64,000 nt of DNA from positions 67,922 to 131,921 of the forward strand of contig NZ_FWER01000025.1 in the NCBI RefSeq assembly GCF_900169785.1, written 5' to 3'. This document shows positions 1,035 to 22,677 of the stretch, piece after piece. Source of the stretch: Rhizobium sullae (GTDB lineage Bacteria; Pseudomonadota; Alphaproteobacteria; Rhizobiales; Rhizobiaceae). Position numbers and translations under genes: made by a program. Below the pieces are notes generated by a model. That model was not told where the DNA came from and did no database searches. It was given only the letters and a program-made list of their open reading frames with translations. Each line of letters begins with the position of its first letter. Position 1 is the stretch's first letter.

Positions 1035-1071
1035 GCCGGCCCGCGCCTCGGGAGAGCCATCGCGGACCGGC
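1035..1071. repeat. GC-rich inverted repeat between permease and regulator genes
   Basis: Arms at 1035-1045 (GCCGGCCCGCG) and 1061-1071 (CGCGGACCGGC) pair over 11 bp with one G-U in RNA, around a 15-base loop. No U-tract follows on either strand, so it looks like an intercistronic mRNA hairpin or REP-like element rather than a strong terminator. It may lower read-through into the regulator gene. Confidence 0.5.
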
Positions 1072-1113
1072 GGGGCCTTCTCACCTCGGCCCGAAAGGTA
1101 TGCTTCATTCGTC

Positions 1114-1938: not shown

Positions 1939-1941
1939 GTG

Positions 1942-2820: not shown

Positions 2821-2843
2821 TAAGCTTCTCCTTCAAGAGCAGC

Positions 2844-4289: not shown

Positions 4290-5375
4290 TCAGCTGAGCC
4301 TTCTGCCTTCGCTGTCGAAGGCCAGCATTTCGGGCACTCTCAGAGAGAGGCTGATCTTTTCCTTGGGCTGCGGGCGGCTGTCGCGGCACTCGACCGTCAT
4401 TTCAGTACCGCTTTTAGTTAGGATGTGCAGGTAGCCGGTCCCTCCCAGCTCCTCGATGAACTCGGCCACGGCCGCAAGCGTCACGGTGCCTTCGCTCGCC
4501 ACAAGCCCGATGTGCTCGGGACGGACGCCGACATGGACAGATGTGCCCCGCGCGAGGCTCGCGCCGGTCGGCAAGTCGAATGGTTGGCCGGGCGCGTCGT
4601 CAAGCTCGACCCGCAAGGAGCCTTGCCCGGCGCTCATGACTTTTGCCTTCAGGAAGTTCATGCCCGGCGAGCCGATGAAGCCTGCGACAAACATGTTTTG
4701 CGGATCCCGATAAAGTTCGAGCGGCGCGCCGACCTGCTGGACGACACCGTCCCTCAGCACGACGATCTTGTCGGCAAGCGTCATCGCCTCCACCTGGTCA
4801 TGCGTGACGTAGACCATGGTCGCGCCGATCTGCCGGTGCAGACGGGCGATCTCCATGCGCATCTTCACGCGCAGTTCCGCATCAAGGTTGGACAGCGGTT
4901 CATCGAACAGGAAGACGCGCGGCTCGCGCACGATCGCCCGGCCGATCGCCACGCGCTGACGTTGGCCGCCGGAAAGCTGGCTCGGCTTGTGACCGAGGTA
5001 GTCGCCGAGACGCAGAATATCCGCCGCCGCCTTTACCTTCTGCTGAATCTCCGCCTTCGGCCGGCGTGCGATCGATAGGCTAAACGCCATGTTTTCGAAA
5101 ACGGAGAGATGCGGATAAAGCGCGTAGGACTGGAAGACCATCGCCACGCCACGCTTGGAAGCCTCCCTGTGCGTCACGTCGTCGTTCTCGATACGGATTT
5201 CCCCGCCGCTCGTCTCCTCCAGTCCCGCGATCATTCTGAGCAACGTCGACTTTCCGCAGCCCGAAGGGCCGACAAAGACTGCGAACTCACCCTGTTCGAT
5301 CTCGATATCGACGCCATGAATGACCTTGAACGCGCCGAACGACTTGCTGACATTCGTCAGCTTGATACCAGACAT
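4290..5375 (-). CDS. ABC sugar transporter ATP-binding protein, UgpC/MalK family
   Basis: Cytoplasmic ATPase energising the sugar importer, 361 residues. Walker [10 protein letters not shown] at 36-44, Q-loop 'FQSYALYPH' near 81-89, signature LSGGQ at 134-138, Walker B 'FLFDEP' at 155-160, and the switch His in 'VTHDQ' at 192. Residues ~240-361 form the TOBE/regulatory domain of MalK-type subunits ([14 protein letters not shown]). The gene sits between the arabinofuranosidase and binding-protein genes, so it is probably dedicated to this importer, although UgpC-type ATPases can serve several CUT1 systems. Confidence 0.93.
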
Positions 5376-8486: not shown

Positions 8487-9308
8487 TCAGCTGATCTTTG
8501 CCTGCTGCCGGCTGAGCATCATCATGATGCCGAGCGCGACGAGGATGATGGTGAAGGAGAAGAGCGTCGTCACCGTTCCGAGCGCATAGAGCACCGGCGT
8601 CGTGACGTTCGTCGTCATGCCGTAGATTTCGAGCGGGAGCGTGTTGTAGGTGCCCGACGTCATCAGCGTGCGGGCGAATTCGTCATAGGAGAGCGTGAAC
8701 CCGAAGAGACCGACGCCGATCAGGCTCGGCAGGATCATCGGCAGAACGACATGCCGGAAAGTCTGCCATGCGCTGGCGCCGAGATCACGCGCGGCTTCCT
8801 CGTAGGCGGGAGAGAACCGGTTGAAGACGGCAAACATGATGAGCACGCCAAACGGCAGCGTCCAGGTGAGGTGGGCGCCGAAAGCCGAGGAATACCAAGC
8901 GGGCTTCAGGCCGCCCTGCTGGAAGACGACGCCGATGCCGAGGGAAATGATGATCGAGGGAACAACGAGGCTCGCAACGGTCGCATAAAACAGTGCGGTC
9001 GAGCCGCGGAATTTCCGGCGGAAGGCAAGGCCTGCGAGCAGTGAGACGACGACGGTGACGACCATGACCATCAGCCCCAACGTGAAGGAGCGTTTAAACG
9101 AGGCCCCAAAGTCGCCGACGGCCTGCTTTTCGAAAAGGTTGAAGAACCAGTGAACCGAAACGCCGTTCAGTGGGAACGTCAGGCCGCCGTCCGGCCCCTG
9201 GAATGATAGAATGACAATCGCCGAGAGCGGGCCGTAGAGAAAGAGCACGAAAACGATAAAAAAGACCGCAAGCACGTAGAATTCGAAGGTCCGCTTTTCG
9301 TGGTTCAT
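8487..9308 (-). CDS. ABC transporter permease, PotC type
   Basis: Inner-membrane subunit of a spermidine/putrescine-type importer, 273 residues. It has a short cytoplasmic N-terminus, a first helix 'FYVLAVFFIVFVLFLYGPLSAIVIL', the PotC-like periplasmic 'NGVSVHWFFNLFE', and an EAA loop 'EEAARDLGASAWQTFRHVVLP'. It abuts the PotB-type gene (1 bp) and the racemase-like gene (1 bp). The family imports polyamines, opines, Fe3+ or other small solutes; the real substrate here is unknown. Confidence 0.9.
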   Translation of the reverse strand: MNHEKRTFEFYVLAVFFIVFVLFLYGPLSAIVILSFQGPDGGLTFPLNGVSVHWFFNLFEKQAVGDFGASFKRSFTLGLMVMVVTVVVSLLAGLAFRRKFRGSTALFYATVASLVVPSIIISLGIGVVFQQGGLKPAWYSSAFGAHLTWTLPFGVLIMFAVFNRFSPAYEEAARDLGASAWQTFRHVVLPMILPSLIGVGLFGFTLSYDEFARTLMTSGTYNTLPLEIYGMTTNVTTPVLYALGTVTTLFSFTIILVALGIMMMLSRQQAKIS

Positions 9309-9309
9309 C

Positions 9310-10224
9310 TCAAAGCTCCTTGCGGATGTCGACGACGCGCAGGATGGCGGCGACCATCAAGAGCACGACGACCAGAAGTACCACGGCGTTGGCGGCAGCG
9401 GCCGGATACTGCAGCAGCGACATCTGGTTTTTCATCATCAGTGCGACGGAAGCGCTCTGGCCACCGGACATGACCTGCACGGTCGAAAAATCTGCCATTA
9501 CCAGCGTCACGACGAAGACGGTGCCGATCGCGATGCCGGGTTTTGCTAGTGGGATGACGACGTTCCAGAGGATTTGCCAGCCGCTGGCACCGGCATCGCG
9601 TGCCGCCTCGAACAGCGAGCGGTCGATACGCATCAGCGTGTTGAAGATCGGCGTCACCATGAAGAGTGTGTAAAGATGCACCATGGCGAGGACGACGGCG
9701 AAATCGGAATAAAGCAGCCACTCGATCGGCTGCGGGATGAGCCCCGTCTCGATCAATGTCGTGTTGACGAGCCCATTGCGGCCGAGCACCGGAATCCACG
9801 AGATCATGCGGATGATGTTTGACGTCATGAAGGGGACCGTGCAGACGAGGAAGAGGATCATCTGCGTTGAGGTCTTGCGGATATGGAACGCCAGGAAATA
9901 GGCGACCCAGAAACCGATGAAAAGCGTCAGCGCCCAAACGATGACGGTGAATTTAAGCGTATTGAGATAGGTCTTCCAGGTGACCCACGAACCGAGCGTA
10001 TCGGTGTAGTTCATGGTGAGGAAGGCGGGATAGAGCCCTGCGAAGTCATAATCCCAGAAGCTGACGAGCGCGATCATCGCGATCGGCAGCAGGAAGAAGA
10101 AGCCGAGGATCAGGAAGAGCGGCAACGCCTGGAGATAGGAGATCGCGGAAAGCGGCAGGCGAAAGCCGCCGCTTCGAACGCGCTCAGCCTTCTCACTGGG
10201 TTGTGTGGAAGCGATCGTTGCCAT
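9310..10224 (-). CDS. ABC transporter permease, PotB type
   Basis: Partner membrane subunit, 304 residues. The start at 10224 (MATIASTQPSEKAERV) has an AGAGGA ribosome-binding site; a longer in-frame reading runs into the repeat-rich spacer and is rejected. Hydrophobic segments include 'ALPLFLILGFFFLLPIAMIALVSF' and 'FTVIVWALTLFIGFWVAYFLAF'. The EAA loop is 'FEAARDAGASGWQILWNVVIP'. It should form the translocation channel with the PotC-type subunit. Confidence 0.88.
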   Translation of the reverse strand: MATIASTQPSEKAERVRSGGFRLPLSAISYLQALPLFLILGFFFLLPIAMIALVSFWDYDFAGLYPAFLTMNYTDTLGSWVTWKTYLNTLKFTVIVWALTLFIGFWVAYFLAFHIRKTSTQMILFLVCTVPFMTSNIIRMISWIPVLGRNGLVNTTLIETGLIPQPIEWLLYSDFAVVLAMVHLYTLFMVTPIFNTLMRIDRSLFEAARDAGASGWQILWNVVIPLAKPGIAIGTVFVVTLVMADFSTVQVMSGGQSASVALMMKNQMSLLQYPAAAANAVVLLVVVLLMVAAILRVVDIRKEL

Positions 10225-10255
10225 CTGCCATCCTCTCGGACATTTGCGAAAACCA

Positions 10256-10360
10256 GGGAGGGAAGGGATCCGAAAGACCCCTCCCCGACTCTCCCACGGG
10301 AGAAGGACGTTTTTCTGCCGCAACCTCTCCGGCTACCTCCCGGTGTGGGGAGGCATGGGA
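10256..10360. repeat. Rhizobial GC-rich mosaic repeat between binding-protein and permease genes
   Basis: The 155-bp gap holds short inverted repeats: TCTCCC-AC-GGGAGA (10290-10303) and CCTCCC-6-GGGAGG (10336-10353), within a 'gacccctccccgactctccc' context that resembles interspersed intergenic mosaic repeats in Rhizobium genomes. It lies immediately downstream of the binding-protein gene. Membership of a named repeat family is from memory and unverified. Confidence 0.45.
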
Positions 10361-10379
10361 GGGGAAAGCGGCAAACACC

Positions 10380-11678
10380 TTAGGCAGCGATGAACTCGTT
10401 CCAGCGGCGGAGCATGTAGCGGTCTTCGTCCATGACCGAATTCCAGCAGGCGACAGCACCCATGCGGGCCTCGAAGGAGCCGCCATCGCGCACGGCACCG
10501 GCCTTTTCCATCACCTTGCCTTCCGGAGAGAGGACGTCGCCCTGGGCCGGCTTGCCCTCGATCCAGTAGCCCCATTCGTCAGCCGACATGAAGCCCTTGG
10601 CGGTTTCCATGCAGGCGGAATAGTAGCCCTGGCGGTTGAGGTAGCCGCCGACCCAGCCGGACGTGTACCAGTTGATGTACTCGTAGGCGGCGTCGAGCTG
10701 AGCGCCCTTGAGGTGCGAGGCAAGGCCGAGACCGCCGCCCCATGCGCGGTAGCCTTCCTTGAGGGGCTGGTACTTGCAGGCAATACCCTTGGAACGAACA
10801 GCGGCGACAGCCGGCGACCACATGGACTGGATGACGACTTCGCCCGACGCCATCAGGTTGACCGACTCGTCGAAGCTCTTCCAGAAGGCGCGGAACTGGC
10901 CTTCGCTCTTTGCCTTGATCAGGAACTCGATCGTCTTGTCGATCTCTTCCTTGGTCATGTTGCCCTTGTCGGCATACTTGATGTTGCCCATGGCTTCCAT
11001 GATCATCGCCGCATCCATGATGCCGATCGACGGGATGTTGAGGATCGAGGTCTTGCCCTTGAACTTCGGGTCCATGATGTCGGCCCAGGTCGTGATTTCA
11101 CGGCCGACAAGGTCCGGACGGATGCCGAGCGTATCGGCGTTGTAGATGGTCGGAACCATCGTCATCCATTTCGTCGGTTCCTTGGCGAAGGTCTTGGAAT
11201 CGACCCCTTCGACGAAGCCCACGGTATGCGGTGCAGTACCCTGCGCAATGACGCTGTCCGGTTTCATCTTGCCGTTGATGAACAGCGGCACGATCTTGTC
11301 GAAATATTTCAGCTTCGACGTATCCATCGGCTGAAGAACGCCGGTCGGGAAGACCTTCTTGGCAATCCAGTATTCGATGTCGGCGATGTCATAGCTATCC
11401 GGCTGGGTGACGGCGCGCTGTGCAGCAGCATCCGAGTCCGTTGCCGTCATTTCGAGCGTGATACCGAGATCTTTTTTGCACTGTTCGGCGATCGCATTGA
11501 TGTTGGAGACGCCCGTGCCAAACTGGCGGAGCGTGATGCTGGACTGCGCCCAGATCGTCGGAAAGCCGGTGATCAGGCCCGAGCCGGCGGCAGCGCCGAC
11601 TGCAGCAGCGCTCGTCTTCAGCAGCGAACGGCGGGAAATCCCCTTCTCCGTCTTGGTGGTTTTCGTTTCAGTCGTCAT
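10380..11678 (-). CDS. Tat-exported ABC substrate-binding protein, PotD type
   Basis: Periplasmic binding protein, 432 residues from the ATG at 11678, which has an AAGGGGAA ribosome-binding site. Residues 15-20 carry a twin-arginine motif (SRRSLLK) followed by 'TSAAAVGAAAGSGLITG', so export is probably through Tat. The mature part contains 'LRQFGTGVSNINAIAEQ' and 'LGITLEMTATDSDAAAQRAV', as in PotD/family-1 spermidine-putrescine-like proteins. Its gene follows the ATPase gene and precedes the two permease genes. A longer frame to 11732 would overlap the ATPase gene and is rejected. Confidence 0.9.
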   Translation of the reverse strand: MTTETKTTKTEKGISRRSLLKTSAAAVGAAAGSGLITGFPTIWAQSSITLRQFGTGVSNINAIAEQCKKDLGITLEMTATDSDAAAQRAVTQPDSYDIADIEYWIAKKVFPTGVLQPMDTSKLKYFDKIVPLFINGKMKPDSVIAQGTAPHTVGFVEGVDSKTFAKEPTKWMTMVPTIYNADTLGIRPDLVGREITTWADIMDPKFKGKTSILNIPSIGIMDAAMIMEAMGNIKYADKGNMTKEEIDKTIEFLIKAKSEGQFRAFWKSFDESVNLMASGEVVIQSMWSPAVAAVRSKGIACKYQPLKEGYRAWGGGLGLASHLKGAQLDAAYEYINWYTSGWVGGYLNRQGYYSACMETAKGFMSADEWGYWIEGKPAQGDVLSPEGKVMEKAGAVRDGGSFEARMGAVACWNSVMDEDRYMLRRWNEFIAA

Positions 11679-11706
11679 GTCAGTTCCCCTTTTTTCGATA
11701 GCTAAT

Positions 11707-12789
11707 TCATGCATGGCCGAGGAGGACTGCATCCTCCAGGGCCCAACTCAGAGACACCGCATCGCCGACCGATACGGGTTTGGCGAAGTAATCGCCGTCG
11801 CTCGCGATGACCGTGAAGTCGTCGCTGCCCGCGCCGATTGTGGTGATCTTCACCGAAGCGCCGCGATATTCGATGTTGGATACGACGCCGTGGAAGCCGA
11901 GCGTCTTTTTTGCTGGCGCTTCTAGGCGGACACGATCGGTGCGGACGCCGATATCGACAGCCTCGCCCACCTGCCTGCCCTCACCGCGTACGGAAAATGT
12001 CTGGCCTTCCGGCCCCTTAAATGTGATCACGCCAGCTTCGGCAGAGACGATGCGGCCTGAAAGAACGTTATGGTCACCCATGAAACGGGCGACGAAAGCT
12101 GTTGCCGGGCGCTCGAAGACCTGGCGGGGTGCTGCCGCCTGTTCGATCTTGCCGTCATTCATGATGACCATGATGTCGGCCAGCGCCATCGCCTCTTCCT
12201 GGCTGTGCGTTACATGGACGAAGGTTATGCCGAGCGTCTTTTGAAGTTTCTTGAGTTCGGCGCGCATGCGGATCTTCAGGAACGGGTCGAGGGCCGAAAG
12301 CGGCTCATCAAGCAGCAGCGCTTCCGGATTGGTGATCAGTGCACGGGCCAGCGCCACGCGCTGCTGCTGGCCGCCGGAAAGCTGTGCCGGACGCCTGGTC
12401 GCGTAGGCTTCCATCTGCATCAGCTTCAGCATCTCCAGCGCCTTGGCCCGGCGCTCGTCCTTCCCGATCCCCTTCATCTTCAGGCTGAAGGCGACATTGT
12501 CGACAAGGTCGAGATGCGGAAAGAGCGCATAGGACTGGAACATCATCGCCGTGCCGCGCTTGGCTGGAGGAAAGTCCGTCACGACCGTATTGCCGAGGCG
12601 GATATCGCCGGAGGAGATGCTTTCATGGCCGGCGATCATGCGGAGCGTCGAGGTCTTGCCGCAGCCCGAAGGGCCAAGGAAACAGCAGTACGATCCAGCA
12701 GGAATCTTCAAGCTGATGGCGTGCACAGCGGTTGTCGTGCCATAAACCTTCGAAACGGACGCTATATCGATTTCTGCCGCTTTCAACAT
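11707..12789 (-). CDS. ABC transporter ATP-binding protein, PotA type
   Basis: ATPase of the polyamine-type importer, 360 residues from the ATG at 12789 preceded by GGGGAAG. Walker A GPSGCGKTS is at ~39-47, then 'MMFQSYALFPHLD' (Q-loop), 'QLSGGQQQRVALARAL' (signature), 'LLLDEPLSALD' (Walker B) and 'VTHSQEEAMALADI' (switch His). The C-terminal ~120 residues form a TOBE domain (FMGDHNVLSGRIVSAEAG). It is the first gene of a six-gene operon and lies divergent to the GntR/FCD regulator. Confidence 0.92.
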   Translation of the reverse strand: MLKAAEIDIASVSKVYGTTTAVHAISLKIPAGSYCCFLGPSGCGKTSTLRMIAGHESISSGDIRLGNTVVTDFPPAKRGTAMMFQSYALFPHLDLVDNVAFSLKMKGIGKDERRAKALEMLKLMQMEAYATRRPAQLSGGQQQRVALARALITNPEALLLDEPLSALDPFLKIRMRAELKKLQKTLGITFVHVTHSQEEAMALADIMVIMNDGKIEQAAAPRQVFERPATAFVARFMGDHNVLSGRIVSAEAGVITFKGPEGQTFSVRGEGRQVGEAVDIGVRTDRVRLEAPAKKTLGFHGVVSNIEYRGASVKITTIGAGSDDFTVIASDGDYFAKPVSVGDAVSLSWALEDAVLLGHA

Positions 12790-12961
12790 CACGTCTTCCC
12801 CTGTTCGAGAAAGACGATGCATCCGCCGTGCCAGTTTCCGTCGCCGGCATCAAAACCTTACGAATCCATCGGGATTTGGCAAATCCATCGAGGCGCTTCA
12901 TTGCGTGGCATTCCGCGACCTGCACAGGAAATAGGCTCTTGTCTGCAATTTATGCAGATGA

Positions 12962-12971
12962 TCGTATACAA
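12962..12971. promoter_or_regulatory. FadR/FCD-type operator candidate in the divergent promoter region
   Basis: TCGTATACAA fits the consensus t.GTa.tAC.a known for the FadR/FCD branch of GntR regulators, centred on GTATAC. It lies ~87 bp upstream of the GntR gene and ~173 bp upstream of the divergent ATPase gene. A second inverted repeat CTGCA-N5-TGCAG (12943-12957) is adjacent. Binding by the neighbouring regulator is inferred. Confidence 0.5.
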
Positions 12972-13057
12972 TTTGACCCGTGTTTTGCTTGCAAATTCCG
13001 TTTAACTTTTCTTCCGAAGCTGGCTATCATTGTGACGATTCTTAGGTATCCGATTTC

Positions 13058-13774
13058 ATGAAGCCCACCTCCTCCGACGCAGTTCTGCCGGCAGACGATT
13101 CAGCCGAAACGAGCACCCAGCAAATTCGCGACGCGATCCGCGATGCAATCATCGAGCGACGGCTGTCGCCAGGCACGAAACTTTCCGAGGGCGATGTCGG
13201 CAATCTCTTCAACGTCAGCCGCACGCTTGCCCGCGCCGCGCTCCAGGCCCTGTCCTATGAGGGTCTCGTCAGCGTCGAGAAGAACCGTGGCGCCTTCGTC
13301 GCCTATCCGTCCCCGGAAGAGGCTCGTCAGATCTTCGCTGCCCGCCGGCTGGTGGAGCCTGGAATTCTGCGCGAAGCCGCCGCGCGCATTACGCCTGCGC
13401 AGATCCAGCACCTGAAGCAGCTCTTGCTGGAAGAGGGCCGCCTGATGGGCGAGCGCGGGCAGACCGCACGGCGCGCCGAAATCAAGGCCTCCGGCGATTT
13501 CCACCTGATGCTCGCTTCGGTCTCCTGCAATGCCATCATGCAGCGCTTCATGGAGGAACTCATCGCCCGCTCCTCGCTGGTCATCGCGCTCTACGGTCAG
13601 TCGACCGTATCAAGCTGTGGCCATACGGAGCACGGCGACATCGTTACGGCTATCGAGCGCAAGGATCTCGACACCGCCTGCAGCCTGATGGTGCACCATA
13701 TTTCCCATATCGAAGCCGATCTCGACCTCCGCGAACGCAAGAGCTTCGGGTTAAAAGAAGCCTTTGCAATGTAG
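13058..13774 (+). CDS. GntR-family regulator with FCD ligand domain
   Basis: Transcription factor of 238 residues. The GntR winged helix spans ~22-85 (QIRDAIRDAIIERRLSPGTKL, EGDVGNLFNVSRTLARAALQ, then GLVSVEKNRGAFVAYP). The helical FCD domain covers ~95-225, with 'AARRLVEPGILREAAARITP' and His residues able to bind metal (DFHLML, MVHHISHIE). 'VSRTLARAALQAL' replaces the usual SRTPVREAL, a small variation in the recognition helix. It is divergent from the polyamine-type ABC operon and probably represses it until a carboxylate-type ligand binds. The ribosome-binding site is weak. Confidence 0.9.
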   Translation: MKPTSSDAVLPADDSAETSTQQIRDAIRDAIIERRLSPGTKLSEGDVGNLFNVSRTLARAALQALSYEGLVSVEKNRGAFVAYPSPEEARQIFAARRLVEPGILREAAARITPAQIQHLKQLLLEEGRLMGERGQTARRAEIKASGDFHLMLASVSCNAIMQRFMEELIARSSLVIALYGQSTVSSCGHTEHGDIVTAIERKDLDTACSLMVHHISHIEADLDLRERKSFGLKEAFAM

Positions 13775-13835
13775 GATTCAGCCAGCCTGGCGGACGAAGG
13801 CGAATACCGGCTGTCGGAGCATCGCCAACTCGGCT

Positions 13836-14846
13836 TCACTGCGGTGGCTTATCGGCGAAATGAGCCATGGCAAACTCCGCCGCATGCTGATTGGATCTCC
13901 TGGCTTGGTCGAGCCAGAACGGAAACAACGAGGCCTCATGGAACAGGCCCGGCAAGACGTCCAGTCGCGCATCGACGTTTGCAGCCTTCAGCTTTTCGAA
14001 AAGACGCTGAACATCCCCCCGCAAAGCCTCCTTGTCGCCGATCTGCAGGAGGATCGGAGGAAAACCTGAATAATCGCTATTGATCGGCGACACGGTTTGA
14101 AGCGAGGGGCTCCCCTTCCCCGCATATTCCTTCCCCACCTGCTGCAGCCACTCGCGGCCGACGGAAACCTCGTCTTCACCATGCGCCGGCACCGCCGCAC
14201 CTTCAAAATCGGCAACCGGGCTGATAGCGATCACGGCAGCGGGCTTCTCGCCGTTCTTGGCGATCTGGCGAAGAGACATTTGGAGCGCCAAAGTTCCGCC
14301 GACGGAATCTCCGATCACCACAATGTTTGCCGCCTCGTAGCCGGATTCAAGCAACCATCGAAATGCAGTGACCGCATCCTCGACCTGGCTCGGAAAGCGG
14401 TATTGAGGCAAAAGCCGATATTCGATCAACAGCACATCGGCAGACGACGCCTTCGCGAACGACGCAGCGATGTTGCGATGGCTACGCATGGAGCCGCCAT
14501 AAAAGCCTCCACCGTGGAGAAAGAGAATGGCCCGTTTGCCAAGCGGGTGGTGGAGGCGAGCGGGCCAGATCAATTCGCCCTCAACGCCATCGGCATCGAC
14601 CTGGCGTATCTGCACGCGGGTTGGCTCAGGCGTGGCCCGCATCGCCTCCTCGAAGCGCTGCCTTCGATCGCGAAAATCGGTCTTGTCATCGACAAGCCGC
14701 GTGATGATTTCCTTGGCGCGTGATCGCGGATCCGACTTTGTTGCGCTGGGATTGTCGGCGCGGGCAGTGCCGATCATCGGTGATGATGCCAGAAGCAAGC
14801 ATGCCATCGCCCTGCCAGCCAAACCGGTTTTTGATCGCAATGCCAT
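13836..14846 (-). CDS. Exported alpha/beta-hydrolase, HSL-type esterase
   Basis: Carboxylesterase-like protein, 336 residues from the ATG at 14846, preceded by GGAGAGGAG. The signal peptide is 'GRAMACLLLASSPMIGTARA', so the enzyme is probably periplasmic or secreted. The hormone-sensitive-lipase oxyanion motif HGGG is at 111-114, the nucleophile S181 in GDSVGG, the acid D271 in 'QIGDKEAL' and the base H303 in 'GLFHEAS'. It ends 62 bp from the convergent GntR regulator. The natural substrate is unknown; short acyl esters are usual for the family. Confidence 0.88.
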   Translation of the reverse strand: MALRSKTGLAGRAMACLLLASSPMIGTARADNPSATKSDPRSRAKEIITRLVDDKTDFRDRRQRFEEAMRATPEPTRVQIRQVDADGVEGELIWPARLHHPLGKRAILFLHGGGFYGGSMRSHRNIAASFAKASSADVLLIEYRLLPQYRFPSQVEDAVTAFRWLLESGYEAANIVVIGDSVGGTLALQMSLRQIAKNGEKPAAVIAISPVADFEGAAVPAHGEDEVSVGREWLQQVGKEYAGKGSPSLQTVSPINSDYSGFPPILLQIGDKEALRGDVQRLFEKLKAANVDARLDVLPGLFHEASLFPFWLDQARRSNQHAAEFAMAHFADKPPQ

Positions 14847-15154
14847 GAAGCTCCTCTCCATTCTCGCCTCGCCTGAATATCAGTGGGGTTCGCCAAGACT
14901 GTAGCGGCAATTGCTATCGTGTAAAGAAAGGGCAGCAAGTGCGAGGAGCATTATCCCAAGCCTGCCGCAAGGTCCCCTCAGGCCACTGGCGCGGCCGCTG
15001 GCATTTTGGCTGACGGGCGCGGCGGCTGGTCTGAGCATGGGATAACAGCAGTCTTCGCTGCCGCGTCCGATCGATCGTGTCAGTCAGCGGTTATCGTCGC
15101 TCTATCCCATGTTTCGGCGCGCTGCATCAACGATACCATGATCCACTTGCGCAA

Positions 15155-15270
15155 CGAAAAGCCCGACGCGGGAGGAGATGCGCCGGGCTTCGATCGTGAC
15201 TGACAGCTTGGGAGGAGGAGCGCTGCCCGTCGGACCGAAGCGGCTCGGGAGGAGGTGAATCGCTTCGGAT
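15155..15270 (-). ncRNA. Predicted trans-acting sRNA of the alpha-r14 (NfeR1-like) family
   Basis: On the minus strand, three consecutive hairpins each expose the same anti-Shine-Dalgarno motif CCUCCUCCC or CUCCUCCC in the loop. Hairpin 1 is CCGAAGCG/CGCTTCGG (15235-15268); hairpin 2 is GGCAGC/GCTGTC with one G-U pair (15202-15227); hairpin 3 has an AGCCCGGCGC-like stem (15160-15189) and ends in TTTT, a Rho-independent terminator. Three hairpins with ultraconserved CCUCCUCCC loops and ~115 nt length are the hallmark of the alphaproteobacterial alpha-r14 sRNAs. A possible promoter (TTGCTG, 16 bp, TATGAT) lies just upstream. Such RNAs block translation by pairing to ribosome-binding sites. The family call is from motif and structure, not from a covariance search. 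Confidence 0.75.
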
Positions 15271-15551
15271 CATCATAGGCTAATGCTGCGACGCAGCAAA
15301 TTCAAGCCTCGCGACTGCGCCGATGTCGCATACCTTGAACGGAACAGAAAAGGCCGGGGCGAGCCTCAGCCCCCTAACTGAAACAGGAATACTTGCTGTC
15401 GCAAGAATCGATCGCATAACTTCGAACTTGCGATTGAGTTTTGCGACAGAAATCATCGTGAGCTTTCAGAGCCGGTGATTTTGTTGCGAAGATTAGGATT
15501 TTTCTCTCCTTTGCTTGTTTCGGGCTGGCTTCATTAGGGGCTTGACGGAGT

Positions 15552-15589
15552 TAGGACAAATGACCTAATAGAATAGGACAAGTGACCTA
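15552..15589. promoter_or_regulatory. Two tandem operator-like palindromes upstream of the TetR gene
   Basis: TAGGACAAATGACCTA (15552-15567) and TAGGACAAGTGACCTA (15574-15589) are near-identical 16-bp imperfect palindromes with centres 22 bp apart, i.e. about two helical turns. A CTTGAC box lies at 15541-15546, so the pair overlaps the likely promoter. They lie 64 bp upstream of the TetR start and are probably its autoregulatory operators. Confidence 0.65.
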
Positions 15590-15652
15590 CGCCTCTTTGA
15601 GGACATTCATGGCCGCCGAAAGGCACCGGAAGACCAAGAAGGAAGCACTACG

Positions 15653-16228
15653 ATGGGAAATCGGGCGACACGCGAGGAAATTATCCGCGTAGCCGACGAT
15701 CTTTTCTACCGCAAGGGATTTGATCAAACATCCTTTGCAGACATCGCCGAGCTCGTGAAGATTTCACGCGGCAACTTCTATTACCATTTCAAGACGAAGG
15801 ACGACATTCTAGAAGCGGTGATCGAGAAACGCCTGGCTGATCGCAAGGCGATGCTGGAGCGATGGGAGATGGAGGGCAAGACACCGGTAGAGCGGATCAC
15901 CAGCTTCATCGACATCCTGATCGTGAATGGGGATAAGATCAAGCTATATGGATGCCCGATCGGAACGCTAACGAGCGAGTTGGCGAAGCTGAGCCATGTA
16001 GCGCAGGCAGACGCCAGCAGGTTGTTCATGCTGTTCCGGACGTGGCTTCGCCGTCAGTTCGTCGCACTCGGCCGAGAAGCCGATGCGGATGCGCTTGCCA
16101 TGCATCTTCTCTCCCGCAGCCAGGGTGCTGCGACCCTTTTCAATGCCTTCCAGAATCCAGACTTCGTTCAGCGCGAGGTTGATCAGATGAAGGACTGGCT
16201 GAAGGATATAGCAGCCGAGGGCTCCTAA
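15653..16228 (+). CDS. TetR/AcrR-family transcriptional regulator
   Basis: Repressor of 191 residues with a GGAAG ribosome-binding site. The TetR helix-turn-helix is at ~8-55: 'TREEIIRVADDLFYRKGFDQ', 'TSFADIAELVKISRGNFYYH', then 'FKTKDDILEAVI'. The ligand-binding region carries 'YGCPIGTLTSELAKLSHVAQ', which is seen in the TetR branch controlling quinone- or electrophile-responsive genes. Two tandem palindromes precede it. The next gene, a YciI-like protein 96 bp downstream, is the likely co-regulated target. The inducer is unknown. Confidence 0.92.
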   Translation: MGNRATREEIIRVADDLFYRKGFDQTSFADIAELVKISRGNFYYHFKTKDDILEAVIEKRLADRKAMLERWEMEGKTPVERITSFIDILIVNGDKIKLYGCPIGTLTSELAKLSHVAQADASRLFMLFRTWLRRQFVALGREADADALAMHLLSRSQGAATLFNAFQNPDFVQREVDQMKDWLKDIAAEGS

Positions 16229-16324
16229 CTCACCGAGAAGAGGCCGAACAAACGTGTCCAATGCTGTCATAACGCGGGGACGCCTCTCTCCCACTCCATC
16301 ACAGCTCAAAAAACGGAACAGTTC

Positions 16325-16612
16325 ATGTTTATCGTATTTCTCAGGTTTTCGTCCAACAAGATGCAGGCCGCCCAATTCCTTGAGGGACATAATGCCTGGA
16401 TCAAAGGGGGCTTCGACAGCGGCACTTTTCTTCTTTCAGGCAGCCTCCACCCGAACGCGGGCGGGGCACTCCTCGCCCATAATATTGATCGGAAAAGCCT
16501 TGAAGCTTTGGTCCAGGAAGATCCTTTTGTGGCAGCGCGTGTGGTGAGCGCCGAGATCCACGAAATTACGCCAGGCCGCATTGATGAACGACTTGTTTTC
16601 CTGAAAGGATGA
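16325..16612 (+). CDS. YciI-like protein
   Basis: A 95-residue protein of the YciI family, small ferredoxin-like alpha+beta barrels with a putative His/Asp active site. 'MFIVFLRFSSNKMQAAQFLEGHNAWI', 'GTFLLSGSLHPNAGGALLA' and 'LVQEDPFVAARVVSAEIHEI' follow the family order, with the conserved 'DPF' near residue 66. It sits 96 bp after the TetR gene on the same strand and may be in its operon. The biochemical function of the family is poorly known. Confidence 0.82.
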   Translation: MFIVFLRFSSNKMQAAQFLEGHNAWIKGGFDSGTFLLSGSLHPNAGGALLAHNIDRKSLEALVQEDPFVAARVVSAEIHEITPGRIDERLVFLKG

Positions 16613-16993
16613 TCGGTGGGCGGAACTTTCCTGGGTCATGACAGGCGGTTGCGCTACCGCTGGTGCGCGGCCGCACCGGAGTTTCTTCATTATCATGATG
16701 CAGCGTGGCTGGGGGGCGAGCCAGCCTTGCGACTATCGCATCGCTCAAGCCTACGGGCTGTTCACCGAGATGCCGGACTTGCGGGTCCTTAGCCGAGGCC
16801 GGTGGCGCGGGTCGTTCGCGCCCTCTCTATGATAGCAGTCGCGATGCGTGTCTGAAGGCTGCCGTAGAGAGATATCTGGGCGGCGCGCTCGTAAGTTCTG
16901 TAGGCACGGCCCACTGAATGTCCGCATTGCTCTTCGAAAGCGCCCGAATTGCTACAACGTCGCGAATTGACGCCATCGGTCAACGGCGGACTC
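16613..16993. other. Intergenic stretch, no gene recognised
   Basis: About 380 bp between the YciI-like gene and the convergent NTF2-like gene. Short frames occur on both strands but none has a convincing start, ribosome-binding site or family resemblance. It may hold decayed coding sequence. Confidence 0.4.
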
Positions 16994-17365
16994 TTACTCC
17001 ACGATTTTCCAATACGAGTCCTTGCGAATCACCTTGCCGTCGCGAAACGTATAGAAGTCACAGCCTCGGACTTCCATTCTCGTGCCTTCGAGGGTGGTGC
17101 CAGTGAGGGTCCATTTTGAGACGCCCGTATCGGCAGACGAATCCACAAAATGCTCCACGTTGCCGTAATGGACGTCAGGCAGGCCTTCAAAGCGCGTCGC
17201 CAGCGCTTCTCTTACGCTCCTTTTGCCCTCGCAACGAGAACCCCAAGGCTTACTGCCCCGCGGCATCTCCAAGATACAATCGTCAGAAAAGAACGCCATG
17301 ACGCGATCAAGGTCGTGCGTGTTGAAGGCCTCACATAGCTCCATCAGTGTCGATCGAATGTCCAC
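16994..17365 (-). CDS. SnoaL-like/NTF2-fold protein
   Basis: A 123-residue single-domain protein of the SnoaL-like NTF2 fold. The pattern is clear: 'LMELCEAFNTHDLDRVMAFFSDDCILEMP' (helices 1-2), 'GKRSVREALATRFEGLPDVHY', then strands ending 'MEVRGCDFYTFRDGKVIRKDSYWKIVE'. The fold is used for small polyketide-like cyclases, isomerases and stress proteins, so activity cannot be assigned. It is transcribed alone, divergent from the amino-acid permease with a ~220-bp gap. Confidence 0.85.
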   Translation of the reverse strand: MDIRSTLMELCEAFNTHDLDRVMAFFSDDCILEMPRGSKPWGSRCEGKRSVREALATRFEGLPDVHYGNVEHFVDSSADTGVSKWTLTGTTLEGTRMEVRGCDFYTFRDGKVIRKDSYWKIVE

Positions 17366-17582
17366 CGTCTCCGTTCGTGCGCGCCCGATCTCCGAAATAG
17401 GTCATTACCAGTAGGCATCACCTTCAGCAGCCGCGCTTGCGCCGCCAGCTGCTAAGCCAGCCTCGCGGCAAACACCAACGCTCAACATACCGCTTTTCTC
17501 CCTTAATTTCCGCTCTAGTTGCCAACAAGGCAGAGCCTGACGCTTGAATGCAGTCAGGGCTGTACAGCTAAAAGGAGGGCGC

Positions 17583-18944
17583 ATGAGCGGGATACCGTTG
17601 GAGACGCTGCCAGAGCAGCCGGAATTAAAGCGGGTCATGGGACCCGGTCTGCTCTTGCTTTTCATCGTCGGTGACATTCTTGGAACGGGCATTTATGCGT
17701 TGACCGGACAAGTCGCCAAAGAGGTGGGCGGTGTCGTCTGGCTGCCGTTCCTGGTTGCTTTCGCCGTCGCGCTGCTGACCGCCTTGAGCTACCTCGAACT
17801 GGTGACGAAATATCCGCGCGCCGCCGGTGCGGCACTTTATACGCACAACGCTTTCGGCATCCACTTCCTCACCTTCCTCGTCGCCTTCGCCGTGATGTCC
17901 TCGGGCATAACGTCCGCGTCGACGGCCTCCCGTGCCTTTGCGGCCAACTTCTCGACAGCCTTCGGCTTCGATTTCGGCGGCTATGGCGTGACCTTCATCG
18001 CCATTGCCTTCATCTCGCTTGTCGCGGCAGTCAATTTCCGCGGCGTCGGTGAGAGCGTCAAGCTCAACGTGCTGCTGACAACGGTCGAACTCACCGGCCT
18101 TTTGATCATTATCGGCATCGGCTTTTGGGCAATCGCCGGCGGACAAGGCGACGTTTCCCGAGTCTGGACCTTCCAGCCGAGCGGCGATCGCGGCGTTCTC
18201 TGGTCGGTCATCGCGGCGACCACGCTCGCCTTCTTCGCCATGGTGGGGTTCGAAGATTCGGTCAACATGGCCGAGGAATGCAAGGCACCGAGCCGGATAT
18301 TCCCGAAGGTGCTTCTGGGTGGCCTCGTCATCACCGGCGGCATCTATGTCCTCGTCGCCATATCGGCGATCACCTTGGTGTCCGCTGCCGAACTTGGCGA
18401 AGGCGAAACACCGCTTTTGAAGGTCGTGCAGGCTGGTGCGCCGAATTTCCCGATCGGCATTTTCGGTATCATCACGATGTTCGCTGTCGCGAATTCCGCT
18501 CTCATCAACATGATGATGGCAAGCCGCCTGATTTACGGCATGAGTCGCGAACAGGTTCTGCCGGAAATGCTCGGGAAGGTCCACGCCGCCAGAAGGACGC
18601 CGTATGTGGCAATCGGCTTCACCACGCTGCTTGCCGTCGCGCTGATCATGTTCGCGGGTGGCGTTCCGGCGCTCGGCGGCACCACGGCTCTGCTGCTTCT
18701 CTGCGTCTTTGCGGTGGTCAATATTGCGGTGCTGGTGCTTCGCCGAGACAGCGTCGGACACGCGCATTTCAAAGCACCTGTGATCGCACCGGTGCTGGGC
18801 TCAATCACCTGCATCTTCCTTGCCGGACCATGGACCGGCCGGGATCCGGTTCAGTACCTGATCGCTGCCTTCCTTCTCGGCCTTGGCATCGTGTTGTGGT
18901 TCGTAACGGTCGGCATCATGCGCGTCAGCGGTCAGACCGCCTGA
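17583..18944 (+). CDS. APC-family amino-acid permease
   Basis: Inner-membrane amino acid transporter of 453 residues. The start at 17583 is set by an excellent ribosome-binding site (AAAAGGAGGGCGC); an upstream ATG at 17544 lacks one. The first helix has the APC signature 'GDILGTGIYALTGQVA', followed by 'ALSYLELVTKYPRAAGAALY' and about 12 hydrophobic segments ending 'LLGLGIVLWFVTVGIM'. 'MVGFEDSVNMAEECKAPSR' is the conserved helix-6 region. The GntR regulator and uxuA follow, but a hexuronate link is not evident, so this gene is probably a separate unit. Substrate unknown. Confidence 0.9.
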   Translation: MSGIPLETLPEQPELKRVMGPGLLLLFIVGDILGTGIYALTGQVAKEVGGVVWLPFLVAFAVALLTALSYLELVTKYPRAAGAALYTHNAFGIHFLTFLVAFAVMSSGITSASTASRAFAANFSTAFGFDFGGYGVTFIAIAFISLVAAVNFRGVGESVKLNVLLTTVELTGLLIIIGIGFWAIAGGQGDVSRVWTFQPSGDRGVLWSVIAATTLAFFAMVGFEDSVNMAEECKAPSRIFPKVLLGGLVITGGIYVLVAISAITLVSAAELGEGETPLLKVVQAGAPNFPIGIFGIITMFAVANSALINMMMASRLIYGMSREQVLPEMLGKVHAARRTPYVAIGFTTLLAVALIMFAGGVPALGGTTALLLLCVFAVVNIAVLVLRRDSVGHAHFKAPVIAPVLGSITCIFLAGPWTGRDPVQYLIAAFLLGLGIVLWFVTVGIMRVSGQTA

Positions 18945-19013
18945 GCGAAGATCAATGCACCGGTTGCTGTTTTGCACCCTCTTCTTCGGTCGCCTTGGCA
19001 ACAGAATTGAATT

Positions 19014-19029
19014 GATATACTAGTATGCA
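19014..19029. promoter_or_regulatory. Operator-like palindrome upstream of the GntR-uxuA genes
   Basis: ATACTAGTAT (19017-19026) is a perfect 10-bp palindrome inside TGATATACTAGTATGCA, about 30 bp before the GntR start. Its position over the promoter and AT-rich dyad fit an autoregulatory site of a GntR/FCD protein. The assignment is positional. Confidence 0.4.
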
Positions 19030-19055
19030 CAACGACATCATGTTCAGGCAATGCC

Positions 19056-19778
19056 ATGCGGCAGGCATCCAGCTTCGAAGCCATCGACTTTCCGGCTCTT
19101 TCGGAAAGACCAGCGAAGCTGCGCCGTGTGACGGCGGCGGATGCGATTTTCGGAAAGCTTTATGCCGACATCGTTTCGCTGCGCATGCCGCCAGGAATGG
19201 CGCTTCAGGAAAAGCGTATAGCTGACGAATTCGGCGTCAGTCGCACGCCTGTGCGCGAAGCGCTGCTTCGTCTTTCGGAAGGCGGGCTTGTGGATATCTA
19301 TCCGCAGTCAGGTACCGTTGTTTCACGCGTCCCCGTATCGGCGATTCCCGAAGCCGTTGTCGTTCGCAAGGCGCTTGAGAGCACGACCGTCGAAAGGGCT
19401 GCCAGAATTGCCCAACTGCACCACATCGCCCGGCTCGATGCCATCCTCGCACGACAGAAGGCGCTTGCCGTCGTTGGCGACGTGTCCAGCTTCCATGAAG
19501 AAGACGAGGTCTTTCACCAGGCGCTAACCCAGATCGCCGGCTACCCTGGTATCTGGACCATCCTGAAGACGGTCAAGGTGCAGATCGACCGGGCGCGGCG
19601 GTTGACGCTTCCGGCCTTGGGCCGCATGGACAATGTGGTCCCCGAACACATCGCTATCCGCGATGCGATCGCAGCCCATGATGTGGAAGCCGCCCGCGAC
19701 GCCATGCTTCACCACCTGAGCGCCGTCATCCCGGACGTCGCCGAGCTTCGCACGCGCTATCCCGATTATTTCTGCTGA
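19056..19778 (+). CDS. GntR/FCD-family regulator, likely of hexuronate catabolism
   Basis: Regulator of 240 residues. The winged helix is at ~32-95 (DAIFGKLYADIVSLRMPPGM, 'EKRIADEFGVSRTPVREALL', 'GLVDIYPQSGTVVSRV') and the FCD domain follows (AVVVRKALESTTVERAARI, 'EDEVFHQALTQIAGYPGIW', 'EHIAIRDAIAAHDVEAARDAM'). The His/Asp residues of the FCD metal site are present. It lies 39 bp ahead of uxuA on the same strand and probably responds to a glucuronate- or mannonate-derived ligand. The effector is inferred from the linkage. Confidence 0.9.
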   Translation: MRQASSFEAIDFPALSERPAKLRRVTAADAIFGKLYADIVSLRMPPGMALQEKRIADEFGVSRTPVREALLRLSEGGLVDIYPQSGTVVSRVPVSAIPEAVVVRKALESTTVERAARIAQLHHIARLDAILARQKALAVVGDVSSFHEEDEVFHQALTQIAGYPGIWTILKTVKVQIDRARRLTLPALGRMDNVVPEHIAIRDAIAAHDVEAARDAMLHHLSAVIPDVAELRTRYPDYFC

Positions 19779-19817
19779 AGCAGCCCATAAGCAACGAGAC
19801 AAACAAGGAGGAAACAG

Positions 19818-21005
19818 ATGCGGCAAGGTTGGAGATGGTTTGGGCCTGAGGCGCCCGTCACTCTCGATGAGGTGCGCCAGACGGGCGCAACGAACATCGT
19901 GTCCTCGCTGCATCAGGTGCCGATCGGCCGCGCCTGGACGGAACGCGAAGTCGGCGACCGCAAATCCATGATCGAGAATACGCCGCCAGGCCGTTCGCCC
20001 CTCACATGGTCTGTCGTAGAGAGCATTCCGATCCCCGATGCGGTCAAGCGCAAGGGCGGCCAGGCAAAGGCCGAAATCGACGCATGGATTGCCAGCCTGG
20101 AGGCAGTCGCCGCCTGCGGCATCTCAATCATCTGCTACAATTTCATGCCGGTGGTCGACTGGACACGCACCGAACTCGATTACGAAATATCGACAGGCGC
20201 AACCGCCATGCGCTTCGACCACGAACGCTTTGCTGCCTTCGACCTCTTCGTGCTGCAACGTCAAGGCGCCGATACGGAGTATTCGGCGGAGGACCAGGAA
20301 CGCGCCCGAAAACTCTATGAGACGATGCCCGAAGCGGAGATGGCTGAGATCACCCGCATCATAACCTCGGCACTGCCGGGCTCGACCACCGAGCCTCTGA
20401 CCATCCCCGGCTTCCGCGAAAAGCTTGCCGCTTACGCCGGCATCGACGCCGCTAAGCTCCGCCAGCACCTCATTGAGTTCCTGCAGGCCGTCATACCTGC
20501 CGCCGAAGCGCGCGGCGTCAAGCTCACGCTGCATCCGGACGATCCACCGCGTTCGCTCTTCGGGCTGCCGCGCATTGCCTCGACAGCTGAGGACTATGCC
20601 GCTCTCTTCGAGGCTGTACCATCAGAAGCAAACGGCATGTGCTACTGCACCGGCAGCCTCGGGGTGCGCGCCGACAACAACCTGCCGGCGATCGCCCGCC
20701 GCTTTGCCTCACGCATCTACTTCGCGCATCTGCGCGCCACCAAGCGCGAAGGCGATGGCCGCTCATTCCATGAGAGCGCCCATCTGGAGGGCGACGTCGA
20801 TATGGTCGCGGTTCTCAAGGAACTCGTGACTGAGGACCGCAAGCGCAGCCCGAAAGACGAAATCGTCTTCCGCTCCGACCACGGTCACCGTATGCTCGAC
20901 GATCTCAACAAAACCGTCACGCCGGGCTATCCGGTGATCGGCCGCATGCGCGGACTGGCGGAACTGCGCGGCATCCTGCACGCGCTCGATGCCAAACCAT
21001 CTTGA
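19818..21005 (+). CDS. uxuA: Mannonate dehydratase UxuA
   Basis: Converts D-mannonate to 2-keto-3-deoxy-D-gluconate (EC 4.2.1.8) in glucuronate breakdown. The 395 residues match the family. Signature stretches: 'MRQGWRWFGPEAPVTLDEVRQ', 'GATNIVSSLHQVPIGRAW', 'WSVVESIPIPDAVK' and 'CYNFMPVVDWTRTEL'. The metal-binding core is in 'KLTLHPDDPPRSLFGLPRI', 'GMCYCTGSLGVRADNN' and 'YFAHLRATKREGDGRSFHES', with the late 'VFRSDHGHRMLDD'. A very strong ribosome-binding site (AAGGAGGAAACAG) precedes the ATG. No uxuB or uxaC is visible in the window. Confidence 0.97.
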   Translation: MRQGWRWFGPEAPVTLDEVRQTGATNIVSSLHQVPIGRAWTEREVGDRKSMIENTPPGRSPLTWSVVESIPIPDAVKRKGGQAKAEIDAWIASLEAVAACGISIICYNFMPVVDWTRTELDYEISTGATAMRFDHERFAAFDLFVLQRQGADTEYSAEDQERARKLYETMPEAEMAEITRIITSALPGSTTEPLTIPGFREKLAAYAGIDAAKLRQHLIEFLQAVIPAAEARGVKLTLHPDDPPRSLFGLPRIASTAEDYAALFEAVPSEANGMCYCTGSLGVRADNNLPAIARRFASRIYFAHLRATKREGDGRSFHESAHLEGDVDMVAVLKELVTEDRKRSPKDEIVFRSDHGHRMLDDLNKTVTPGYPVIGRMRGLAELRGILHALDAKPS

Positions 21006-21627
21006 TCCAGAAGTGACTGTGCCAGACCGGCATGGTCCTCTCCATTTCTTTGATCGGCGAAGGTTGCTATAGCGCGGGTGGAGGCGACCCAAGAGAAAGC
21101 CAAAAAGGCTGGCGCCTGGCTTAGCAAAGCCATCGAGGTTGCGCGCGGTTTGCGTTGCCGCCGTTCCGAAGGGGCGAGACAACCGTGGACGCGCAAGACC
21201 TTGCCGTTGGTGTGGGGCAGCGCGAGAAAGGGCGAAAAGCCCATCTCGCGCGCCAACTCGACTGCGGCGAGCGCAACCTTTGGATTGAAATGCGCCGTGA
21301 AGGCACTTGTGCTGGATCCATGCAGAACGCCTGCACCAGAAATCGATGCCGGCGACACCGAAACAGAAACGGCAGGCCGCGGCGATTCGTGATCTCGTCT
21401 GGCGCTTTTTACAAGACGCTGAAGGTCAGGAAACAAGAGCCTTCACTGCAAATCAACGAGTTTCGGCGCAGGTTCGTGATTGCCTCGCATTCGCCATCTT
21501 CGATTTCGGCCCTTGGGAGGACGCCGTGCGGGCAAGTTCGACTGGGTAGCCTTGGGCGAGGGATAAACATTCATCCAGGAGCGTCCAATTCAAACGAGGT
21601 ACGATCGGCATCCGCGAACGGGCCGGA
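21006..21627. other. Degenerate intergenic region, possible FAD/Fe-S oxidase remnant on the minus strand
   Basis: There is no intact gene in about 620 bp. On the minus strand a frame at about 21160-21400 reads 'FNPKVALAAVELAREMGF', 'SPFLALPHTNGKVLRVHG' and 'CLAPSERR', which resembles the C-terminal cysteine-rich half of YdiJ/GlcD-type FAD-linked dehydrogenases. No start, catalytic domain or continuous frame remains. I regard it as a possible decayed fragment; the family call is weak. Confidence 0.3.
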
Positions 21628-22677
21628 CTAGGCGACACCACGAAGGGCCTGGCAGAGTGTGAGCGGGCCTCCATCCCGAAGACTCTTCTCTCGCTGAACA
21701 TGGAAGACATCCCGGACCCAGCCGACCTCCCGTGCCTCTTTTGGCGTCATTCCAAACTCGTGTCTGAAGGCCCGGCTGTATGCGGAGGGATCGTCAAAAC
21801 CCCATTCCTCCGCGATATGGAATATGGCCCGGACGTCATTGCTATTGGAGATTCCCGCACGCGTCCGGACCAGACGCTCATGCCGGATATAGGCCGCCAC
21901 ACCACCCAGCGGCTCGAATAATCGATATAACCGCGAGCGCGAGACACCTAGCTCGCTGCAGATCACCTCGGCAGTGAGCGAGTGGTCGGCAAGTCTCGTG
22001 TTTATCAAGCGCTTGGCGCGTTCCAGGACCACGGCCCCGATTGGTCTGTGAGCGTCTACCAGCCGATCTCGCGAGGGAGCTAGACACGCGATGATAAGGT
22101 TCCTCGTGGCCTCGACCACGTATGGCACCTCTGCCATGGTGACGTCGGCCAACGATCGCGCCAGAAGCACAAGGTAGTCGGCGAGGAGATGGCCCAACGC
22201 GCCCTCGATCTTCCTATGGAGCAGGCTCTCGAGAGTGGACGTCGGGACAACCCCGTCTGACGGAAGAAAGACCGACAATGCACCCTCATCCTCCACCATA
22301 ACCTCGAACGGTTTAGCCAGGCATCGAAGATGGGGCAAGGTCTGCCCTCCAGCGGCGCGCGTCAGGGGCCGGACCGGCAAGCGCAGATACCAGTTATCCA
22401 ATGCAGCCTTCTTCACGTGCCGCCATTCGTGGGCATAGCCTTTTCCTGGCAGGACAGTTGAAACAACTAGCATCGAACCGAGCATCCAGACCTTCAGTCG
22501 GGCGGGAAAGGAACCGTCCGCGCTCTTGCAGAATGTCAGATCAGCGACGCCAACGTGAGCGTTCCTGAATATCTCGAACTGGTTGTCACTGGGAAACGAT
22601 TGGGTACTAACATCTATCGAGCAAGCGAATTTGTGATCGATATCTCGCTCGGCACCCGCCTCTAGCATGTTATCCAT
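21628..22677 (-). CDS. AraC-family transcriptional regulator
   Basis: A ~349-residue regulator. The C-terminal ~100 residues hold the double helix-turn-helix: 'LADHSLTAEVICSELGVSRS', 'RLYRLFEPLGGVAAYIRHER', then 'IFHIAEEWGFDDPSAYSRAF' and 'RHEFGMTPKEAREVGW'. The N-terminal ~230 residues resemble the AraC-binding-like domain of the OruR/FeaR-like branch (KAALDNWYLRLPVRPLTRAA). The ATG at 22677 has GAAGG upstream; one at 22701 is also in frame but lacks a ribosome-binding site. It is divergent from the AbgT transporter operon, which it probably activates. Confidence 0.88.
   Translation of the reverse strand: MDNMLEAGAERDIDHKFACSIDVSTQSFPSDNQFEIFRNAHVGVADLTFCKSADGSFPARLKVWMLGSMLVVSTVLPGKGYAHEWRHVKKAALDNWYLRLPVRPLTRAAGGQTLPHLRCLAKPFEVMVEDEGALSVFLPSDGVVPTSTLESLLHRKIEGALGHLLADYLVLLARSLADVTMAEVPYVVEATRNLIIACLAPSRDRLVDAHRPIGAVVLERAKRLINTRLADHSLTAEVICSELGVSRSRLYRLFEPLGGVAAYIRHERLVRTRAGISNSNDVRAIFHIAEEWGFDDPSAYSRAFRHEFGMTPKEAREVGWVRDVFHVQREKSLRDGGPLTLCQALRGVA

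Follow-up and report, generated by a model that had tools for sequence, protein, structure and literature searches.

The founding member of the alpha-r14 family of small RNAs is NfeR1 (i.e. SmelC397/Smr14C2) of S. meliloti, a chromosomally encoded RNA of 123 nt with three redundant anti-Shine-Dalgarno (aSD) loops that is described as Hfq-independent (PMC10746234) and for which a length of 115 nt is given elsewhere (PMC8844928). NfeR1 is abundant in nitrogen-poor medium, after salt shock and in symbiosis, is activated by LsrB and repressed by NtrC, and uses its loops to silence ntrB as well as two mRNAs that encode ABC solute-binding proteins (PMC10746234). Family members occur in three- and four-hairpin versions, genomes hold several copies, with copies on each replicon, and synteny is fragmented (PMC3927594). 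S. meliloti carries six NfeR1-type copies, one of which is reliably seen by northern blotting (reviewed in PMC7143759). The plasmid copy SmelA075 gave 5' RACE and northern signals that were strong after a shift to 40 C (PMC2873474) and was recovered with Hfq from nodules (PMC5928592). The family, structure, multi-copy nature and mechanism of alpha-r14 are hence already known, and the locus described here is an ordinary member of this well-described family; what the sequence comparisons below would add is a plasmid-borne sub-line, csp-linked relatives, a displaced promoter motif and loop loss elsewhere in the genus.

A 64 kb stretch of DNA from Rhizobium sullae (hereafter the window) was examined for the alpha-r14-like RNA that an original prediction had placed on its minus strand. 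The Rfam family ar14 (RF02344, model length 123 positions) matched at 15273-15154 with a score of 94.9 bits (E 4.3e-16, model positions 1-123; cmscan), well over the gathering score of 58.8 bits, and the proposed name therefore stands. ar14 was the sole Rfam family at gathering within the window. The features of the locus and its borders are as follows:

15154-15273, minus strand: alpha-r14 sRNA gene (cmscan; fold z of -4.3; covariation in 60 relatives)
15235-15268, minus strand: hairpin 1, loop with CCTCCTCCC at 15255-15247 (covariance model (CM), fold and motif search)
15198-15231, minus strand: hairpin 2, loop with CTCCTCCTCCC, including CCTCCTCCC at 15218-15210 (CM, fold and motif search)
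15154-15191, minus strand: hairpin 3, loop with CTCCTCCC at 15177-15170, followed by a U-run; probable intrinsic terminator (CM and fold)
13836-14861, minus strand: alpha/beta hydrolase gene bordering the gap
15653-16228, plus strand: TetR gene bordering the gap

The minimum-energy fold of the RNA reached -52.4 kcal/mol as compared to a mean of -36.7 for shuffled sequences (z -4.3), with none of 200 shuffles being as good. As had been proposed, each of three hairpins presents an aSD motif, which is unpaired in every loop of the predicted fold; CTCCTCCC is common to all three loops and loop 3 (i.e. TCTCCTCCC) differs from CCTCCTCCC by one letter. The window has four CTCCTCCC matches, three of them in the sRNA. 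Motif number alone is unremarkable (at least four CTCCTCCC in 24 of 100 shuffles, at least two CCTCCTCCC in 12 of 100), and the striking part is the arrangement of the motifs, as reflected in the CM score and fold. Hairpin 3 ends in ...GGGCUUUUCGU and was missed by a simple terminator scan because its loop of 10 exceeds the limit of 8 in that scan; the terminator claimed for the end of the RNA is therefore read from the structure as hairpin 3 plus the U-run. The predicted transcript runs from about 15270, a start taken from the predicted core promoter and in agreement with the 5' boundary originally given, to 15154, a length of about 117 nt. Family membership, structure, covariation, copy number and the conserved promoter block of the sub-line were all observed or computed. 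We consider it very likely that this minus-strand element is a genuine gene for a trans-acting alpha-r14 sRNA, an NfeR1 paralogue carried by a Rhizobium sullae-like megaplasmid, which would work by the mechanism set out below.

The RNA lies in a gap between called genes (14862-15652) that holds short ORFs only, in line with the gene-free gap described at the outset. Only short ORFs overlap the RNA, one of which encodes 49 aa on the same strand, and a coding explanation was set aside. Positions 9000-22000 of the window match megaplasmid pWSM1592_1 of Rhizobium sullae WSM1592 at 98.8% identity over 91%, and identity in the region of the RNA (15100-15420) is 99.4% over its whole length; the locus is kept at 99% in a same-species genome (L038). 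Just upstream of the TetR gene are two 18-bp near-palindromes (15551-15568, TTAGGACAAATGACCTAA; 15573-15590, ATAGGACAAGTGACCTAC), which are perhaps operators of the TetR gene itself. Control of the sRNA by the neighbouring TetR was considered and is not favoured; these near-palindromes are unlike the palindrome upstream of the sRNA. Elsewhere in the window, the called genes at 1012-2823 (plus strand, 603 aa) and 56476-57108 (minus strand, 210 aa) had no Pfam match at 1e-6.

The source genome contains six ar14 matches, all over the cut-off, as compared to none in any of 14 control genomes. All 80 genomes drawn from the genus contained the family, with 3 to 10 matches each under stricter filters by which some weak matches were lost. 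Within the bacterial family to which the genus belongs, 146 of 151 genomes had a match (E <= 0.001) and 137 had one over the cut-off. At class level, nine of the 190 genomes drawn had a match and only the source genome exceeded the cut-off. The host of the window copy falls within the known occurrence of alpha-r14 (i.e. Rhizobiaceae and near relatives). Two of the copies in the source genome are near-identical four-hairpin aSD RNAs of the SmelA099 type (L003:1501-1623 and L005:1501-1623, in both cases with about 40 nt of upstream sequence). Each lies about 300 bases away from the end of a contig; they match this known type and were rejected as something new.

To find relatives of the window copy, the RNA together with 147 nt of upstream sequence was used as a DNA query against 148 genomes of the genus. 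From the matches listed, 69 sub-line loci were picked by hand for likeness to the window copy, most including the upstream DNA; this set includes the window itself (L037) and the same species (L038) and excludes matches to hairpins 2-3 only. As the loci were chosen for likeness, the conservation of stems and promoter is partly built in. Sub-line relatives lie on named plasmids of R. gallicum, R. leguminosarum, R. ruizarguesonis, S. fredii and others. The alignment of distinct RNAs holds 60 of 65 rows: five RNA-identical loci were dropped, and five rows, representing six loci in which the loop-2 part of hairpin 2 is absent, were then left out. All five rows have a match to a cold-shock gene (csp) upstream, and the two that were scored fell under the Rfam cut-off (L211, 52.5 bits; L215, 55.5 bits). 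These relatives without the loop-2 part are:

L211:194-300
L214:250-356
L215:250-356
L217:250-359
L218:171-278

Over the 60 relatives, 96.1% of pair cells form as compared to 31.6-45.3% in slid controls. Two-sided changes were present in 8 of 32 pairs against a shuffled mean of 3.4, and none of 500 shuffles reached 8, with the relatives having been found by DNA similarity to the window copy and the shuffles ignoring relatedness. A count of cells with two-sided change (18, versus 16 when slid by -1 column) is not a decisive measure. The stems of the sub-line are kept by compensatory change, and pairing is supported. Mean column identities for stem and loop were 0.87 and 0.80 for hairpin 1, 0.96 and 0.91 for hairpin 2, and 0.97 and 0.81 for hairpin 3; published accounts of the family describe the opposite, variable stems and constant loops, and the pattern seen here is partly due to how the set was selected. 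CTCCTCCC was present in hairpins 1, 2 and 3 of 13, 57 and 13 of the 60 RNAs, respectively. All three loops are intact in 13 (including the window copy), only the second in 44 and none in 3, so that loops 1 and 3 lack CTCCTCCC in 47 relatives, a pattern that fits relaxed selection. Among 48 copies of other types, 38 have three CTCCTCCC, nine have two and one has one; in each of the ten with fewer, the third loop has CCTCCCCC, so that minor changes in the loops also occur outside the sub-line.

Upstream of the window copy, a standard sigma-70 scan found no consensus promoter. Comparison with the sub-line pointed to the following elements:

15301-15306, minus strand: predicted -35, CTTGAA(T); the position of CTTGAA is kept in the sub-line
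15284-15298, minus strand: perfect 15-bp palindrome TGCTGCGTCGCAGCA in the -35/-10 spacer; putative operator
15277-15282, minus strand: TAGCCT, a weak -10 with a 17-nt spacer from the -35; predicted start at about 15270

CTTGAA occupies the -35 place in 59 of the 69 aligned sub-line loci; GTTGACA, which contains the sigma-70 -35 consensus TTGACA, is found in three and the remaining seven differ. In the promoter-block count, for which 66 of the 69 loci were used, the distance from the end of CTTGAA to the RNA was 27 nt in 57 loci and 28 nt in one more. DNA upstream of the promoter block in L059 is unrelated to that of the window. The first 12 nt of the palindrome match a motif known from upstream of NfeR1-type RNAs, where its end is 40 nt from the RNA. 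In 62 CM-anchored copies (a set including two same-species genomes and with the anchors of L009 and L029 set by hand), the motif [TC]GC[TCA]GCNN[TC]GC[AG] ended 40-41 nt before the RNA in 39, all but one of which (38 of 39) also had a TGCR-N6-RCAT box, the published LsrB site in relaxed form, ending at 52-53 nt. A further five, all of the window type and recurring among the 66 sub-line loci, have a motif that stops 12-13 nt short of the RNA, and none of them has a box within 140 nt. In the remaining 18, which include nine flagged as four-hairpin copies, no motif of the searched form was present, though several show a variant by eye. When the motif was relaxed further, it was present in the last 40 nt upstream in 54 of the 66 sub-line loci, being at 13 nt in 51. 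None of these 66 loci has an LsrB-like box at 45-60 nt, and one (L194) has a box at 17 nt. For the window copy, no TGCR-N6-RCAT was found within 213 nt upstream, and the NtrC-type TGC-N11-GCA had no exact match in the same 213 nt or between 13696 and 19872 of the window. We read the CTTGAAT-N17-TAGCCT block as a putative core promoter. Its spacer would hold the old motif, which in the window copy is a perfect 15-bp palindrome, and we infer that the motif may act there as a repressor site.

The window copy resembles NfeR1 in its three hairpins, CCUCCUCCC-type loops, predicted length of about 115-123 nt, probable 3' terminator and probable ntrB site. The two differ in that NfeR1 is chromosomal with LsrB and NtrC sites, whereas the window copy is on a megaplasmid and lacks exact forms of both within 213 nt upstream. 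Specifically, both the LsrB-like box about 52 nt before the NfeR1 RNA and the NtrC site about 100-116 nt upstream are absent at the window copy, and the motif is 27 nt closer to the RNA than in NfeR1-type copies. Where NfeR1 has the promoter CTTAGAC-N17-CTATAT, the window copy has CTTGAAT-N17-TAGCCT with equal spacing, a weak match. This comparison draws on NfeR1-type copies of Rhizobium and the published description. Most likely the window copy is not controlled by LsrB and NtrC in the manner of NfeR1. SmelA075, a stress-induced RNA of pSymA in S. meliloti, is likewise a plasmid-borne, three-hairpin aSD RNA (Rfam score of 89.9 bits), but its stems have diverged, its motif ends about 44 nt before the 5' end and it falls weakly outside the sub-line of the window in a small tree (support 0.75). 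RNAs of the SmelA099 type, two of which (L003 and L005) are in the source genome, share the loop motif and the Rfam model but have an extra hairpin at the 5' end (i.e. the four-hairpin type of PMC3927594). AbcR1/AbcR2 (alpha-r15) share aSD-like motifs and ABC mRNA targets (PMC7143759) but form a separate family, and AbcR was ruled out as the identity of the window RNA by the single Rfam family at gathering. CcsR1 (RF02791), a stress RNA by its family title, has CCUCCUCCC loops but a shorter model (83 positions); the absence of any window match at its gathering score of 65.3 bits ruled out CcsR as the identity.

Some relatives are linked to a cold-shock gene. In Rhizobium sp. T136 (pT136c) and S. 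fredii (pSF45436d), a 68-aa csp gene lies directly upstream of the sub-line RNA, 1 to 2 kb from repC. The units of csp plus window-type alpha-r14 are:

L219:2769-3223 (S. fredii pSF45436d)
L222:2773-3234 (Rhizobium sp. T136 pT136c)

A whole csp gene was also detected upstream by tblastn in L041, L042/L171 and L044. Partial matches in L181, L187, L211, L212, L214, L215, L217 and L218 were mostly cut by the end of the stretch, and the gene in L211, L212 and L214 was split into two pieces as if frame-shifted. In PLSDB, 929 records matched a csp plus sRNA query, most of them partially, with 23 covering at least 80%. No csp match was found anywhere in the window by tblastn. One further feature of the window bears on this linkage:

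15348-15374, minus strand: terminator-like stem, a probable relic of a lost upstream csp gene (terminator scan, 15373-15356 and 15367-15350; alignment)

This stem, located between csp and the RNA, is common to the window, R. gallicum-like and csp-linked loci. As the stem is shared and csp is absent, the lineage of the window has probably lost csp and retained the terminator and RNA. Linkage of alpha-r14 to csp was not found in the literature that was searched, where cold shock protein came up only in a reference title, nor in the part of PMC3927594 that was covered, in which csp 3' UTRs are tied to another family, SmelB053. A tentative reading, which we regard as possible though doubtful, is that these RNAs form a distinct plasmid-carried alpha-r14 lineage, perhaps derived from a csp-sRNA cassette of plasmid backbones, with a regulatory input that now works in the opposite sense. 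The LsrB-like box would be gone and the motif would now lie between -35 and -10 as a dyad, such that its bound factor would repress instead of help transcription; aSD motifs would later have been lost from two of three loops in many Rhizobium genomes, turning a redundant silencer into a single-seed one.

Potential targets were assessed from gene starts given by a home-made caller and scored by duplex energy alone. Two weak calls (13860, 14478) were dropped, starts were replaced for the genes at 11707-12822 and 17544-18944, and three ORFs (13836, 16325 and 16994) were added; a Pfam scan covered 46 of the resulting 47 genes, leaving out 34690-35010. The many ABC transporter genes noted for the window were confirmed (13 of 47, four of them encoding solute-binding proteins). 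Their suggested role as targets found no backing as a preference: median energies of the best duplex between loop and start region were -12.8 kcal/mol for ABC genes versus -10.75 for the other 34, a difference that was not significant (one-sided P = 0.16). The strongest ABC candidates were 4290-5375 (-19.0 kcal/mol) and 10380-11732 (-18.7 kcal/mol), and the four solute-binding genes had energies of -18.7, -13.1, -9.5 and -7.4. The top predicted target was a gene for a TPR protein at 45807-47624 (-23.8). Five of the 47 genes were on a par with the best 5% of random 31-mers, roughly double the number expected by chance. In the source genome, the ntrB start region (GCCGGGAGGCGGCAUG), located through ntrC and with the start chosen by eye, is predicted to pair with loop 1 (-19.0 kcal/mol), which agrees with the published ntrB target in S. 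meliloti. This start region (L176:319-350) has GGGAGG adjoining AUG, a strong predicted site for aSD loops.

By analogy with NfeR1, from which the mechanism is taken, the window copy would be transcribed from its own predicted sigma-70-type promoter, and the transcript is predicted to end at the third hairpin. Any of the three C-rich loops would then pair with purine-rich Shine-Dalgarno sequences of trans-encoded mRNAs, blocking ribosome entry and lowering translation. As only one of the six NfeR1-type copies of S. meliloti, NfeR1 itself, is reliably seen on northern blots (PMC7143759), the window copy could be silent, i.e. a decaying paralogue of recognisable structure that is no longer transcribed or needed. 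The sub-line offers some grounds for this, namely the truncated relatives without the loop-2 part, two of them under the Rfam cut-off, and the 47 of 60 members without the motif in loops 1 and 3. The promoter of the window copy is a weak match to the consensus, which likewise speaks against the preferred reading. We nevertheless hold decay to be unlikely for a copy that retains all three aSD loops, well-paired stems and the core promoter block in a sub-line with covariation, and the northern signal of plasmid copy SmelA075 after a heat shift (PMC2873474) weakens the argument from silent copies.

Another explanation is that the RNA mainly titrates something else, such as an RNA-binding protein, or acts on Shine-Dalgarno sequences generally with no defined set of mRNAs. 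Pairing strength does track generic Shine-Dalgarno strength, ABC genes of the window are not preferred, few start regions (the five of 47 given above) reach the best 5% of random 31-mers, and SmelA075 was recovered with Hfq (PMC5928592). Against these points, silencing of ntrB by NfeR1 was loop-dependent in published reporter tests and NfeR1 is described as Hfq-independent (PMC10746234), so that we give this explanation a low probability, somewhat below that of decay. Processing from the mRNA of an upstream small protein, as for a CcsR/cuckoo-type RNA, would account for the shared loop motif and for the related copies just downstream of csp. It is highly improbable here: the window had no CcsR1 match at the cut-off, five related sources scored only 28.7-34.0 bits as compared to the 65.3 needed, a conserved promoter-like block separates the csp terminator from the RNA, and csp is missing at the window locus. 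An alpha-r14 silencer acting in trans in the manner of NfeR1 is the reading that we prefer.

Each of the 80 genomes drawn from the genus holds 3 to 10 ar14 matches, yet in the cited literature function and promoter have been worked out only for NfeR1. A copy with intact loops and a different promoter block is well suited for testing whether paralogues of this kind share out their tasks by when they are expressed or are redundant.
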